Part shown: piece after piece, positions 8,401 to 63,566 of the stretch | Layout of the letters: each line of letters begins with the position of its first letter | Position numbering within the stretch: the first letter of the stretch is position 1 | Assembly: GCA_017450695.1 (NCBI GenBank) | Contig: JAFSTA010000089.1 | Span: 1-63,566 of the forward strand | Source of the DNA: Kiritimatiellia bacterium | GTDB lineage: Bacteria > Verrucomicrobiota > Kiritimatiellia > RFP12 > UBA1067 | Reading direction: 5' to 3' | Length of the DNA: 63,566 nt | The notes under the pieces: model-generated | What the model was told of the DNA's origin: nothing | The model's input: only the letters and a program-made list of their open reading frames with translations | Database searches by the model: none | Position numbers and translations under genes: made by a program

Positions 8401-8881
8401 CGACTCTTCGCGCTTCTCGCTGGAAGCCGACGGACTCCGCGCCTGGAGGGACTTCCCCGCCGTCGCGCACACATCCCCCATCCGATTCCTGCGGACATCC
8501 ATCCGCGACGCGAACGGACAGAAGCTCTCCGAAAACTTCATCTGGCTGAACGTGAAAGAGGACCGCAACTACCGCGAGCTGGCGAACCTGCCGGCTGTCG
8601 AAGTTGCGGCGAAGGCGATGCGGATTGACGGCACGGCGGTCAAAGGAAAAGGCGAAGTGACACTCGTCAACAAAGGCAACGCGCCTGCGCTGATGATCCG
8701 CGTGAAAGTGCAAGACGCGAACGCCAACCGTCTCCTGCCGGTCTTCTACTCCGACAACTACTTCACCCTTATGCCCGGCGAATCGCGCCGTGTCACCTGG
8801 GAAACGAAAGCGTCCCTACCGCCCGGCGGATACACAATCCACATCGGCGGCTGGAACGTCGTACAAAGCACAACACGCTAA
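5411..8881 (+). CDS. Secreted GH2 family glycoside hydrolase with discoidin-like modules
   Basis: This 1156-aa exported enzyme has a signal peptide (MKTVQLVSLALVSITALHTV). Residues of about 25-200 and 215-315 look like two F5/8 type C (CBM32-like) modules, with WLQFSATAWIQVTFPSPVS and WVYVDLGAVSVVDSVVLHW. The GH2 sugar-binding, Ig-like and TIM-barrel domains follow. The barrel shows CRGGNWGMDD, MIRNWVGM, WDDFW and GRNEGNPP with the likely acid/base Glu; SERGQPNIPEIE probably carries the nucleophile. The overall pattern resembles the exo-beta-glucosaminidase/beta-mannosidase branch of GH2. The exact substrate cannot be read from sequence. The start has GAGAGGT upstream. The gene stands alone between two inverted repeats. 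Confidence 0.88.
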   Translation: MKTVQLVSLALVSITALHTVAATSPCRNLAYRRAVYQSSSVDFKRTGQLVTDGSLSGSDFLPPQITSQAPDRSPSVEMPVCAFDGKNATKWLQFSATAWIQVTFPSPVSITSYQITSANDDPLRDPKNWRLLGSNDGKQFSEIEKRSGEKFPNRFVTRQFKLAKPVSYRVYRLDITANSGDKGDNGTGPRIQLAEWDLLAQDGKTVLRPSTGQSAPFISTWASAGKNNEWVYVDLGAVSVVDSVVLHWGKTGAATAYDVQVSGDAKEWKTVASKKGGKGGRETRSFQPADARYVRILCKETAFDRFILAECEVWGRNDLPSYQLPPAPEVASDGSLRLTGGNWKLCRASDVNATGIELSGPFDDSNWLPAVVPGTVLTSYQKAGAIPDMNIADNQLMISDSFFTANFWYRNTFLAPPAEKGMRTWLNFDAINWKADVFLNGAFLGQINGTFLRKRFDVTDRIRPGAENRLAVLIRANDNPGDVTVQDIHSPGSNGGILGADNPTIHSSVGWDWTPTIRGRNIGIYRDVFLSHSQDVTLSDGWAISELDVVKKDFSRASVELRVRARNASRKPTLVTVQGTVTPGNLQIVSTPVVLAPGETREITIGAATVRNPKLWWPATYGGQPLYTAKLTAFTNSGVSDRHEFRFGIRKFTYKKDKPMQIFCNGTRIVCRGGNWGMDDANLAATPEDYDTKVRLHAEANLNMIRNWVGMTNHKAFYDACDRYGVLIWDDFWLANPADGPDPANQGMFLENARDKILKNRHHAALALYCGRNEGNPPKGLFEALPKLIGETDNTRHYIPHSADNTVSGFGPYGVQNPVWYFQNTPHTLHSERGQPNIPEIETMRAMLTPAHYWPIDNVWGLHDFTEGGAQNGAAFLNYLKQSYGAPKDLEDFVRRAQLVTYENHKAMFEAVYASNGNGLLMWMSQSAWPSMVWQTYDYWHDINGGYAGAKAGNQPRNIIFNQATKNFWLVNATPQPLLGATATIEVFGIDGRKLYTDSSRFSLEADGLRAWRDFPAVAHTSPIRFLRTSIRDANGQKLSENFIWLNVKEDRNYRELANLPAVEVAAKAMRIDGTAVKGKGEVTLVNKGNAPALMIRVKVQDANANRLLPVFYSDNYFTLMPGESRRVTWETKASLPPGGYTIHIGGWNVVQSTTR

Positions 8882-8937
8882 ACCGGCTGAACACGACTTG
8901 CCTGTAAGTTAGCTTTTAGCCGGTAGCTGGTAGCTGA

Positions 8938-9112
8938 TTGGGTGGTTGGGTGGTTAGTGCGCTGCGCACTGCCTAGAATGGCTAGAAGTTCTAGCCCCCT
9001 AGAACCTCTAGCACTTGGGGTGGTTGGTGGTTGGGTGGTTGGGCAATCGATCGCATTCGATCGCATTCGATCGCATTCGATAGTTATCGATTATTCCCCA
9101 CTGACTTTTTTT
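8938..9112. repeat. Composite repeats downstream of the GH2 gene
   Basis: Three elements lie in a row. The first is GGTGGTTGG-type tandem tracts (8938-8956 and 9017-9046). The second is a CTAG-rich element at 8973-9015, nearly identical to 11843-11887. The third is a 10-base tandem TCGCATTCGA repeated three times (9051-9080), followed by ATCGATTATTCCCC. The last block is the inverted partner of 5194-5277. Confidence 0.7.
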
Positions 9113-9202
9113 CAGCTGGAGGGGCGCATCTCCGTTTTTCACCCATGTGTGAGTGGGATCGGAAAACAACCAAGACAACCGGTAAAAACAACTTAACGAA
9201 GA

Positions 9203-9297
9203 GCGCGGGCCAACTCGCCCGCGCCTTTTCCCGCTGCTAACGGCTATGGGCTTGGGGTATCATTGCCTCTGGACGCGGGCGAGTTAGCCCGTGTACC
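9203..9297. repeat. Pair of mirrored GC hairpins between GH2 and the RNA gene
   Basis: GCGCGGGC-caactc-GCCCGCGC (about 9205-9226, followed by CTTTTC) can act as a terminator on the plus strand. GCGGGC-gagtta-GCCCGT (9277-9294) is the same sequence in inverse orientation. Confidence 0.5.
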
Positions 9298-9388
9298 ATA
9301 GACTAGTTGTTTTCAAATCGTTGTTTCCTAAAGAAATAGCGGTGAATTCTGGAGATGCGCCCAGCTGGCGGCACCCAGCACTTTCCCC

Positions 9389-9417
9389 TTGAAAGCGGTT
9401 GAGGGATGGGCTATACT
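9389..9417 (+). promoter_or_regulatory. Strong sigma-70 type promoter for the structured RNA
   Basis: TTGAAA (9389-9394), a 17-base spacer and TATACT (9412-9417). The predicted start of transcription is about 9424. No ORF with a plausible ribosome binding site follows for more than 500 bases, so the product is probably an RNA or a long leader. Confidence 0.7.
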
Positions 9418-9423
9418 TCTTTG

Positions 9424-9822
9424 TGTCTTTTGTCTGTGCGCGGCTGCGTACGGACGGGACTGTTCTTTCCAGCGGCGGACGATACATCGCGCCCGCCACC
9501 GGCCCGGATCGGATCGCTCGACGATCCGCCGAGGGCACAACCCCTTGCCCAATCCTGAAACAGGCATTCGGCGCAAGCCGTCTGCCTGAGACGGAGAGGA
9601 TAAAAGGGGGCCGAGTAATCCTGACAAGGACCTCGGAGGTACGCAACAGCGTACTCGCGTAATGTGTGAAACTTCGCCAAAGTTCAAAGTTAAGAAGCGG
9701 GATACGGGGTTGCGCTACGTGACGTAAGTCACGTGGCGTGTCTTCTAATCATGTTTCTTAACAGGCGTTTGGCGATGCCCCACATTAGGCGTGAGATACA
9801 AGGCACGCCACCCGTTTTTTCT
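9424..9822 (+). ncRNA. Candidate structured non-coding RNA of unknown family, about 400 nt
   Basis: Between a consensus promoter and a rho-independent terminator the sequence folds into a string of perfect or near-perfect helices. They are 9432-9441/9446-9455 (10 bp), 9474-9478/9493-9497, 9510-9516/9522-9528 (7 bp), 9533-9537/9546-9550, 9562-9566/9583-9587 enclosing CGGC-GCAA-GCCG, 9611-9615/9632-9636 enclosing TCCT-gaca-AGGA, and 9639-9644/9649-9654. A long rod follows: 9660-9666/9781-9787, 9674-9681/9768-9775, 9689-9696/9755-9762, and a 12-bp tip helix 9712-9723/9728-9739 capped by a GTAA tetraloop. Two GNRA loops and nested long-range pairing argue for a folded RNA. It lacks the conserved boxes of RNase P RNA and the tRNA-like end of tmRNA. 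It could instead be a long leader of the SUMF1-domain gene. Confidence 0.65.
9788..9820 (+). terminator. Rho-independent terminator of the structured RNA
   Basis: GGCGTG (9788-9793) pairs with CACGCC (9804-9809) and is followed by ACCCG and six T. It lies directly after the closing helix of the RNA. Confidence 0.7.
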
Positions 9823-9960
9823 GTGCCCGTGGTGGATGCTGTTTCGGTTGAGGATTCGGCGCGGAAAAAGGAATAACAGACAATGAGGATAACGTCTTTC
9901 GTGACAATTTTATCTAGGGAATTGATCCCAAATTCCTGCTACTTTTACCGGGGAAAAGCA

Positions 9961-11598
9961 ATGAAGAGGATCGTTGAGAAAGTCGTGGCGACGACACTTG
10001 CCGTGTGCGCCGCGTCGGTCTGCTGGGGATACCCGACGGCGAAGGAGATAGAGGATGCACAGCCGCTGGTGATCGAGCTGATGAAGCCAGCGATGCGCGG
10101 ATACGATGCCGATGCGGCGTCAGCCGCCGTCGCGTTCGCGAAGAACGCGGAGACGGAGGCCGAGAAGTTTCTCCTTCTGCGCGGTGCAGTGAACTTGTAT
10201 GCCCGGGCGGGCGAAGACGCAAAAGCGGCGAAGGTCTTCATCGCAATGCTTGCCACCGTGAAAGACATCCCGTCCACTGAGCAGGAGCGGATTCTGCTGT
10301 CGGCAGGGCGGGCACTCTCGAAGCAGAAACCGGACCCCGTGTGGATATTGTCCCTCTACCGAAAGGTGCGTTCCCAGATCGTCTCCGAACAGGAGGCGAA
10401 AGCCGCTCTCGCCGAACTAGCGAAATCGCCGAAAAGCGCGGCGGGAAACCTTCGCATGGGAAACTCCTATGCAATCCTCGGAAACTGGACGAAAGCGCTG
10501 AAACACCTAGGCGAATCGAGCGGCGAGATCGCGCAACTGGCTCGGAAGGAGGCGGGCGGCAAGGTCACCGACGAGAAACTGGCGGACGGCTGGTGGAAGG
10601 AGGCGGATGAAGCGGCCGTGGCGGAGGTGAAGGCGGCGTATCGCGCCCATGCGGCGGCACTCTACAGCAAAGCGCTGGAGGAAGGCTCGCTGACGGGGTT
10701 GCGCAAGACACTGGCGGAACGCCGCATCGTCGAGGCTCGGCAGTCTCGAATCGGATACAAGGCTTCCAGGGACGATACACGCTACTGCGTGATAGACCTC
10801 TCCCCTGGACCAGATGCGAAACAGTACCCGATGAGATTCCTTGCCACTCCGCCGTCCAGCTGGACGGAGAAGAATGGCTGGCCGGACGAGTACAAGACGA
10901 CAAAGCTGGTACTGCGCCGGATCGAGGCAGGAAGTTTTACTATGGGTGCAGAAGGCAAAACACCCGATGCTTCCCACATCGTGACGCTGACGAAGCCATT
11001 CTACATCGGCGTGTTCGAGGTGACGCAGAAACAATGGCAACTGGTGACGGGGAATAATCCGTCGCATTTTAAGGGCGAGATGCGTCCAGTGGAGGAAGTC
11101 ACCTACGACATGATCCGCGGTTCTTCAGAGGGCGCGAAGTGGCCGATATCCACCTTTGTCGATCCGGACTCCTTCCTCGACAAGCTGCGGACGAGGACGG
11201 GGCTCGAATTCGACCTGCCGACGGAGGCACAATGGGAGTACGCATGCAAGGCGGGAACAAAGACCAAATACAGCTACGGGGACAATGTAGATGAGAGTTA
11301 TATGTGGTACGGGGAAAACTCGTCTCACGTCACGCATGATGTCGGCACGAAGAAGCCGAATCCGTGGGGACTGTACGACATGCACGGGAATGTGCGGGAG
11401 TGGTGTTTGGACTGGAGAGACGATTACGCATACGGAGTGGATCCGACTGGCCCTTCCTCAGGCTCGGACCGAGTTTTACGAAGCGGTGGGCAAAATAGCG
11501 AGTCGCGTTATTGCACCTCGGCAACCAGGAGCGGCGACAAGCCGTCGATGAATCGCAGCAGCCACGGTCTCCGCCTTATCTGCCCCTTGTCCGAGTGA
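9961..11598 (+). CDS. Exported SUMF1/formylglycine-generating-enzyme-like domain protein
   Basis: This 545-aa protein has a signal peptide (MKRIVEKVVATTLAVCAASV, cut near CWGYP). Residues of about 30-290 are helical, Ala/Lys/Glu-rich and possibly TPR-like. The C-terminal 230 residues are an FGE-sulfatase (SUMF1) domain: RIEAGSFTMGAEG, VFEVTQKQWQLVTGNNPS, FDLPTEAQWEYACKAGT, NPWGLYDMHGNVREWCLDW and a final SSHGLRLI in place of the family GFR ending. In PVC bacteria such domains are usually non-catalytic or of unknown substrate. No sulfatase is nearby. The ATG at 9961, with GGGGAAAA upstream, is preferred over the in-frame ATG at 9883, which would put 26 residues before the signal peptide. Confidence 0.85.
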   Translation: MKRIVEKVVATTLAVCAASVCWGYPTAKEIEDAQPLVIELMKPAMRGYDADAASAAVAFAKNAETEAEKFLLLRGAVNLYARAGEDAKAAKVFIAMLATVKDIPSTEQERILLSAGRALSKQKPDPVWILSLYRKVRSQIVSEQEAKAALAELAKSPKSAAGNLRMGNSYAILGNWTKALKHLGESSGEIAQLARKEAGGKVTDEKLADGWWKEADEAAVAEVKAAYRAHAAALYSKALEEGSLTGLRKTLAERRIVEARQSRIGYKASRDDTRYCVIDLSPGPDAKQYPMRFLATPPSSWTEKNGWPDEYKTTKLVLRRIEAGSFTMGAEGKTPDASHIVTLTKPFYIGVFEVTQKQWQLVTGNNPSHFKGEMRPVEEVTYDMIRGSSEGAKWPISTFVDPDSFLDKLRTRTGLEFDLPTEAQWEYACKAGTKTKYSYGDNVDESYMWYGENSSHVTHDVGTKKPNPWGLYDMHGNVREWCLDWRDDYAYGVDPTGPSSGSDRVLRSGGQNSESRYCTSATRSGDKPSMNRSSHGLRLICPLSE

Positions 11599-11807
11599 CG
11601 CGCAAGGACATACGAGGGTCTATAAGTTAGCTGGTGGCTGTTAGCCCCCCGCTCGCGCGTTGCTTGAGTGATCGATTCAGATAACTTGCTACACTATACG
11701 CCGGAGGTTGAAGCTATAGACGAGGTTGAAATGGTATTGTGATTTGTGACATTGTTGGCATTTGTGAACATTTGAGATTTGTGAACAATGAAGTTATAGA
11801 CGAGCTG

Positions 11808-11940
11808 TTAGGTGGTTGGGGGATTAGCCCGCCACGCACCGTCTAGAATGGCTAGAAGTTCTAGCCCCCCCTAGAACCTCTAGCACTAGAAGCCAACAGC
11901 CAACAGCCAACCGCTAACACCTAACAGCTAACCGCCACCA
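11808..11940. repeat. Repeat-filled gap between the SUMF1-domain gene and DUF4175
   Basis: The 11599-11942 gap has no gene. It holds a CTAG-rich element (11843-11887) nearly identical to 8973-9015, preceded as there by a GGTGGTTGG tract and followed by the inverse (CCAACAG)n/CTAACAGC tract. Confidence 0.6.
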
Positions 11941-62581: not shown

Positions 62582-63390
62582 TCATTTCCGTGCCCCTTTC
62601 CATTTATCCGTGCAACGCATTTTTATCACGCCTCCTTGAATCGGCACGAGGAACTCACCGCATTCGTTCGTTCCGGCGGACAATCCCGAAGTATCATCAG
62701 GACGGATGGGCATTTCCCCGAACGGATTGTCCGAGTCCCAAATGGAAACCTTACGTCGGGCGACTTTCTCAATCCTGTTTTTCCAGTCGGCCCTATCCTT
62801 TTCGGGAAGCGATTTGAAAAACAAGGAGAACGGTCCCATTTCAAACCATCTCCAAACGAAATCTGCCCTCATGCTTTCTAGCGATTCCAAATACAGTTGT
62901 TTCGTCATGAACGGACCGTAACCGATCTCCTTCATGCCGTACACGCCTCCGGCCGGCTCGTTTTCACACCGGCGGATTTCCTCGTTGACCCTGTCCAACG
63001 CGTCAAGCCGGAATCGCCAGACGGCATCCTGAATATCCTCCGCCGACCGAAAACGCCCGGACAATTCGGAAACAATTCTGAGATAGTCTGACAAAGCCGC
63101 CGCGCGAATGGCATACGAACTCTGGTCAAATTCAAGTTTGCGGAAACACGCGGTCAATGTCCCGATGAGTTCCTTTTTCCGGTTCGCCGGGACCCGGTTG
63201 AACAACCTGCAGATGTCATCCCCGCATTCCGAAGCCCTGCGATGATGCTCCTCCGTTGTCATCGGCAATTTTTCGATTTTACCGGTCACGATTTCCGATG
63301 CGGTTCTCTCGTAATCCCGGCATCCCGTTGCCGATATGACGAGTTTTACCAAGATAAGCAAGACAACTGATGCACGATTAAGGTTGTGGA
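62582..63390 (-). CDS. Lipoprotein of unknown function, 3' exon of a gene interrupted by a group II intron
   Basis: The exon encodes about 269 aa. It begins inside a signal peptide (VVLLILVKLVISATGC), whose lipobox SATGC predicts an outer- or inner-membrane lipoprotein. The mature part is helical and charged, like the two genes downstream, with no recognised family. The frame continues upstream to an apparent ATG at 63490, but that stretch (residues starting MTPVSHGKPCAGNPHARF) is intron domain V/VI sequence, not protein. The true start codon must lie in the 5' exon beyond the window, so expression probably depends on splicing. Confidence 0.65.
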
Positions 63391-63566
63391 GTAGAGCGTT
63401 CCGCCTCGGCTTCTCCGATGCGGACGCCCCCTCTTCAAACCGTGCGTGCGGATTTCCCGCACACGGCTTCCCGTGTGAAACTGGTGTCATCGGTATCTCC
63501 TTCTTGTGAGGGCTATCAGCCCGAGTTTCTGTAGTTCTCCGTAGTAGGTCTCGGCGTATTTCAGCC
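63391..63566 (-). mobile_element. Group II intron, 3' end (domains V and VI)
   Basis: Domain V (63436-63470, minus strand) has the AGC triad helix AGCCGTGTGCGG, a GAAA tetraloop and TCCGCACGCACGGTTT. Domain VI (about 63394-63429) pairs GCGTCCGC with GCGG-A-ACGC, leaving a bulged adenosine at 63399 or 63400 as branch point. The intron would end CTCTAC at 63391, which fits the AY 3' rule. The end of the maturase gene lies 16 bases before domain V. The 5' part is outside the window. Confidence 0.85.
63487..63564 (-). CDS. ltrA: Group II intron reverse transcriptase/maturase, C-terminal end (partial)
   Basis: The last 25 residues, LKYAETYYGELQKLGLIAL and then TRRRYR with TGA, match the usual C-terminus of LtrA-type maturases. 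The gene runs off the right edge. Its TGA overlaps the ATG of a spurious frame into the lipoprotein gene. Confidence 0.75.
   Translation of the reverse strand: MKYAETYYGELQKLGLIALTRRRYR

Follow-up and report, generated by a model that had tools for sequence, protein, structure and literature searches.

The RNA encoded from about position 9389 of the window, the whole 63,566-nt stretch of a Kiritimatiellia bacterium contig analysed here, heads the gene at 9883 as its 5' leader and probably belongs to a large new family of bistable transcription attenuators. No Rfam entry covers this class of leader RNA, whose range extends far beyond the phylum of Kiritimatiellia. It is rare to find a large, well-conserved RNA class that Rfam lacks; this one occurs in two phyla that are prominent members of gut and rumen communities, and its covariation is strong enough to settle most of the structure without experiment.

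The promoter that the initial annotation had read as TTGAAA-17-TATACT is present, and it was the sole sigma-70-like site detected across 8800-10200 (Table 1). Its position is kept in two paralogues on other contigs of the window genome (C203 and C60; 82% and 79% identical to the window leader) despite their unrelated upstream flanks, which makes it the 5' edge of the conserved element. When the paralogues were aligned, similarity ran from a few bases 5' of the -35 box to the ribosome binding site and stopped ~50 nt past T6, at ~9872, with unrelated sequence on both flanks. The conserved unit thus comprises promoter, RNA, and ribosome binding site. The element had been described as ending in a hairpin plus T6; the T6 was found, but conservation continues beyond it. 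Both tetraloop tips proposed earlier were located, GCAA at 9571-9582 and GTAA at about 9722-9729. The 5' ~220 nt is common to the genus only, with BLAST matches from other genera beginning at query 218 or later.

Table 1. Coordinates of the leader and its parts in the window. State R, rod fold; state T, terminator fold.
Feature	Position	Strand	Remarks
Sigma-70-like promoter, TTGAAA-17 nt-TATACT	9389..9417	+	5' edge of conserved element
5' domain of leader, several hairpins including GCAA-capped 9571-9582	9424..9638	+	similar only in same-genus copies
Conserved core, covariance model R1, 173 positions	9639..9811	+	widely conserved part
State R hairpin P0 (9639-9644/9649-9654)	9639..9654	+	5' strand doubles as helix A 5' strand in state T
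State T helix A (9639-9661 with 9696-9718)	9639..9718	+	covarying pair, columns 7-83: AU 28/GC 7
State R rod: A1.B3 (9662-9668/9781-9787), A2.B2 (9674-9680/9769-9775), A3.B1 (9690-9695/9756-9761)	9662..9787	+	two-sided changes at 18/20 pairs
Predicted antiterminator hairpin b.c (9712-9722/9729-9739), rod tip	9712..9739	+	98.5% paired; captures terminator 5' strand
Predicted terminator stem, helix B (9735-9743/9801-9809)	9735..9809	+	99.1% paired; 4 pairs with two-sided changes
U-tract of predicted terminator (T6)	9815..9820	+	T-rich 8-mer after helix B in family
3' hairpin of family-f1 type, U-tract/GCGCC with Shine-Dalgarno region	9815..9872	+	weaker evidence than core
Shine-Dalgarno-like AAAAGGA	9866..9872	+	paralogue conservation ends here
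Downstream gene, 571 codons, C-terminal SUMF1/FGE-sulfatase domain	9883..11598	+	judging by homologues, translation may begin at 9961

No Rfam 15 covariance model matched the window RNA, even at E 10, and ARAGORN detected no tmRNA, in agreement with the earlier call that RNase P RNA, tmRNA, and SRP RNA are absent; T-boxes and known riboswitches likewise gave no covariance match that would make the RNA a member. When 40 loci, either divergent or from Bacteroidales, were searched against Rfam at E 0.1-0.5, only chance matches and one tRNA came back. Literature searches on Kiritimatiella and structured RNA found nothing, and those on orphan riboswitches, Bacteroidetes candidate RNAs, FopS, and UpxY/LoaP leaders yielded no fitting description; preprints and most subscription papers lay outside their scope, and an earlier unnamed prediction is possible.

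Copies were collected with BLAST and with covariance model R1 of the 173-nt core. The window genome holds 8 strong copies and several weaker ones. Across larger sets, the family was present in 107 of 162 genomes from the order, 68 of 388 from the phylum, and 69 of 393 from the Bacteroidales (the order to which a rumen Prevotellaceae MAG belongs), with 1 to about 15 copies per genome. Named matches were nearly all rumen or gut Kiritimatiellae MAGs. Copies in distant groups had bit scores of only about 35-65, but structural features were inspected in about 70 of them. Among the 33 Bacteroidales copies inspected, 19 had the Bacteroidota -7 box TAnnTTTG 37-92 nt 5' of the core and nearly all adopted the same rod, indicating that the RNA is deeply shared and does not reflect a binning error. 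The suggestion that this might be a new RNA class of one phylum was therefore right about novelty but too narrow about range.

The homologue search and covariation test proposed in the initial annotation bore out a conserved structure. Using 37 distinct core sequences, 60 pairs, and 500 shuffles, we observed standard pairing in 92.2% of cells over all named pairs, falling to 32-35% when the partner was shifted by one base. Two-sided changes affected 29 of the 60 pairs (192 cells), compared to 18.4 pairs and 61 cells in shuffles, and 0/500 shuffles matched any measure. Three helices, A1.B3, A2.B2, and A3.B1, connect the loop of hairpin A with the loop of hairpin B; in A1.B3 and A3.B1, every pair changed on both sides, with up to six pair types. 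The rod closure previously placed at 9660-9666/9781-9787 is real and corresponds to the covarying A1.B3. Over 157 elements, the A loop scored 72.5 for pairing with its own B loop, 45.9 with that of another copy, and 34.1 with shuffled sequence, and in the 33 Bacteroidales copies its own B loop gave 64.3 versus 42.1 for another copy's. Helix A shows a clade-level swap from AAC.GUU to AUCU.AGAU.

Many copies per genome before unrelated genes, together with long inverted repeats, might also be expected of an element acting as DNA, such as a mobile-element inverted repeat or a recombination site. However, the conserved G.U pairs (e.g. columns 88-113, 84-117, and 119-185) and the asymmetry of model scores between the two strands (159 versus 31 bits) indicate that the working molecule is RNA, not DNA. 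Orientation to genes is fixed, the exact motif was absent from IMG/VR viral contigs, no phage match was found, and a plasmid search gave only a 27-bp match of low significance. A DNA-level element is thus disfavoured, and we consider it very improbable.

The window RNA folds at -187.4 kcal/mol (z -7.3; 0/100 shuffles as good), so the roughly ten nested helices described earlier go far beyond chance, but they belong to two alternative folds and not to a single static one. In most copies the minimum-energy fold is a long nested rod that includes the three loop-loop helices and has b.c at its tip. Strand c bases 9735-9739 belong to both b.c and helix B, and these two helices therefore cannot coexist. 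From these shared bases, the topology, and nested-fold energies, we infer that the whole folds are mutually exclusive in vivo, although a kissing-loop form that accommodates most helices at once is conceivable. A static pseudoknotted fold containing all helices was considered and replaced, since most copies have the rod as their minimum-energy fold and a single strand c cannot pair with b and d together. Covariation support is strong for the rod fold and moderate for the terminator fold, the latter being much weaker: on its own, the rod fold has 22 pairs and 173 cells with two-sided changes, while the terminator fold has 11 pairs and 31 cells compared to 6.2 and 9.4 in shuffles.

Both uses of strand c were evident across the family. 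In 115 close copies, the c.d duplex gave -21.2 versus -8.9 when shuffled and the b.c duplex -23.0 versus -12.7, and the same duplexes were found in 43 divergent copies and in Bacteroidales. The two folds are nearly isoenergetic in the close copies (median difference 4.5 of ~70 kcal/mol), with window values of -78.0 and about -66 kcal/mol. Divergent copies favour the rod by about 11 kcal/mol, so termination there would need kinetic control or a factor. Helix B resembles an intrinsic terminator, as a T-rich 8-mer lies directly behind it in 152 of 158 elements versus 14% of random positions. An antiterminator formed by sequence past the U-tract, suspected at three loci (L210, L211, and L216), was rejected as not general and mechanistically too late; pairing of this kind exceeded the shuffled 95th percentile in 22% of close and 2% of divergent copies. 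In the global minimum-energy fold of the window RNA, the 5' end at 9424-9431 (GUGUCUU) pairs with terminator strand d at 9799-9806 (AAGGCAC), a predicted pairing that could provide a further antiterminator in this genus.

The region had been proposed both as an independent RNA of ~400 nt and, alternatively, as a large leader of the SUMF1-domain gene. The first proposal amounts to a stand-alone small RNA acting in trans, with an incidental neighbouring gene; its own promoter and intrinsic terminator, and a terminated product of about 400 nt, would suit such a role. However, within 900 nt downstream the longest ORF lay on the strand of the RNA in 139 of 151 loci and on the opposite strand in 11, while the upstream side was split 52:47, so that the bias is confined to the downstream side and identifies the RNA as a leader. 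Conservation also reaches the ribosome binding site, and in close copies the 3' hairpin pairs with the Shine-Dalgarno region. A trans-acting RNA is accordingly quite unlikely. The downstream ORF was on the same strand in Bacteroidales loci as well (27:1), and an ATG with a Shine-Dalgarno sequence was found within 250 nt downstream in 130 of 157 cases. Three features of an attenuator were observed: a predicted terminator stem with a U-tract, an alternative upstream partner for the 5' strand of that stem, and a position in cis before a co-directional gene.

The same 3' hairpin raises the possibility that control is translational, with the hairpin past the U-tract hiding the ribosome binding site and the core setting its opening. 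In family f1, pairing of the U-tract/GCGCC strand with the Shine-Dalgarno strand scored 29.7 for self, 25.6 for swapped, and 22.3 for shuffled sequences, consistent with such a role. Divergent copies lack such a hairpin (20.0 versus 19.8 shuffled). Bacteroidota largely do without Shine-Dalgarno sequences (PMC6847099), and a hairpin of this type would be of little use there, whereas the terminator is universal. We therefore judge translational control to be slightly less probable even than a trans-acting RNA.

Although the leader assignment held, it is not tied to SUMF1 genes. The 157 first proteins fell into 100 unrelated sequence clusters, 80 of them singletons. One cluster has seven members across several families of the class, which indicates that a leader and its gene can stay together for a long time; these proteins (L216, L219, L226, L227, and L237 among the loci) are large predicted membrane or secreted proteins of up to ~980 aa. 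Pfam searches of 146 first genes identified BspA-type LRR (LRR_5) in 10, FGE-sulfatase in 4, and HsdM/N6-methylase in 3, as well as glycosyltransferases, kinases, FRG, and HTH domains, and lipoprotein genes were also found downstream. Among upstream control genes, families with at least two members included many housekeeping enzymes and no LRR, FGE-sulfatase, or HsdM/N6-methylase. The clearest bias was that of LRR_5, with 10 of 146 first genes compared to at most 1 of 106 upstream control genes.

Confirmed first genes include full-length type I methyltransferases (L042, L262, and L294), a type IIG enzyme (L289), a Z1/MzaC-type helicase (L306), an SNF2 helicase (L266), an FRG protein (L297), and a PDC-S31-type protein (L055). 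Three of the leaders in the window genome have a restriction-modification gene behind them (L042, L289, and L294, the last with a weak score). An enrichment of defence genes is not claimed, since upstream control genes also give defence-like matches. The downstream genes have no metabolic pathway in common that would suggest a ligand. At six loci (L038, L048, L050, L055, L062, and L066), secreted SUMF1 proteins related to one another (TITGVTAQQRYPWNGKVDISY...) come after an unrelated first gene, with SGESA-type secreted proteins next in line.

The most likely reading of the family is a new class of riboswitch-like transcription attenuators, with termination, switching, and regulation predicted from sequence and modelled folds. 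Transcription would start about 7 nt past 9417. While the core is being transcribed, strand b (within 9696-9722, on the 3' side of helix A) could stay paired with its 5' partner a, leaving c (9729-9743) free to pair with d (9801-9809) into an intrinsic terminator and releasing an RNA of ~400 nt at T6. Alternatively, b would pair with c and the large a/b loop would zip stepwise onto the c/d loop through A3.B1, A2.B2, and A1.B3, forming the long rod, blocking the terminator, and allowing polymerase to read into the gene. The most likely sensor site would be a conserved part of the A loop around GAAAAUCGCCAAUUUU. The likely regulon would consist of outside- or phage-facing accessory genes, comprising surface LRR, SUMF1, lipoprotein, glycosyltransferase, restriction-modification, and other defence genes. 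Should this reading as an attenuator be correct, it defines a surface and anti-phage gene regulon in mostly uncultured bacteria, and culturable Bacteroidales offer a clear target for a search for the trigger. More tentatively, one ancient RNA switch class across Verrucomicrobiota and Bacteroidota might respond to a single shared signal, be it phage attack, envelope stress, or a second messenger, and control a patchwork defence and surface regulon, a proposal that we consider possible but rather doubtful.

RfaH, UpxY, and LoaP have similar regulons of surface and accessory operons (PMC7593976, PMC12691694), and the leader could instead support processive antitermination in the manner of put, EAR, LoaP, or ops, with the rod or a paused complex recruiting a NusG paralogue or modifying polymerase to pass the leader and later terminators. 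A second gene of the NusG family is encoded in the window genome; it is best matched by the UpxY antiterminator family NF033644 (E 1.4e-23), although with a score under the curated cut-off. Among family genomes at least 90% complete, at least two NusG genes were present in 18 of 21 with strong copies compared to 4 of 10 without, in counts that ignore phylogeny. However, three genomes with strong copies (G004, G024, and G091) had a single NusG gene detected, most weak-match genomes of families f3 and f4 have one, and no ops-like motif was identified. The association with NusG paralogues is a lead only, and processive antitermination is an unlikely, if the least improbable, alternative to attenuation. 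The UpxY/RfaH-type second paralogue lies at G000:C274:8762-9001 (L317), beside a glycoside hydrolase-like gene.

Among known systems, attenuators such as the cobalamin riboswitch and the trp attenuator share with the new family the arrangement in which a.b and c.d give the terminator and b.c the antiterminator, within a 5' leader that carries a promoter of its own. Cobalamin riboswitches pair a loop on the sensing side with a loop of the expression platform, which the loop-loop helices of the window family recall. Unlike the cobalamin riboswitch and the trp attenuator, the new family has no Rfam 15 match, has an exceptionally long rod as predicted antiterminator with three loop-loop helices, and heads genes without a shared pathway. 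Like LoaP-dependent leaders, EAR, put, and ops/UpxY, it heads surface and accessory operons in a genome with an UpxY/RfaH-family gene, but no motif matched and the link is one of correlation only. None of these leaders is known to carry such a terminator/rod switch. The FopS sRNA of Bacteroides is likewise multi-copy in Bacteroidota and ends in an intrinsic terminator (PMC11697453), but it is trans-acting, consists of a single-stranded 5' stretch (R1 seed) and one terminator hairpin, and is deposited in Rfam, whereas the window family has a different architecture and no Rfam match. Candidate RNAs from the human microbiome include unnamed Bacteroidetes predictions such as HMP2_4205, of 132 bp with a predicted terminator (PMC8040213); some of these may overlap with the window family, and the main text of that study does not mention Lentisphaerae.

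The start of the downstream ORF at 9883-9960 (MRITSFVTILS...) resembles the first codons behind the C60 leader (MRIMPLVATLW...), while homologues of the SUMF1 gene begin at the internal ATG at 9961 (MKRIVEK... / MKRIQAR...). By comparison with these homologues, translation may start from 9961 instead, and 9883-9960 seems to be the beginning of one gene fused in frame to a second, as in a gene replacement behind the leader. An intergenic repeat of ~85 bp, 86% identical between its copies at 8932-9016 and 11803-11887, flanks the leader-gene unit, and other intergenic repeats recur 5' of other leader copies in the same genome. Near the contig end, a group II intron domain (RF00029 in Rfam; 52.5 bits) was found at 63386-63471 on the minus strand.
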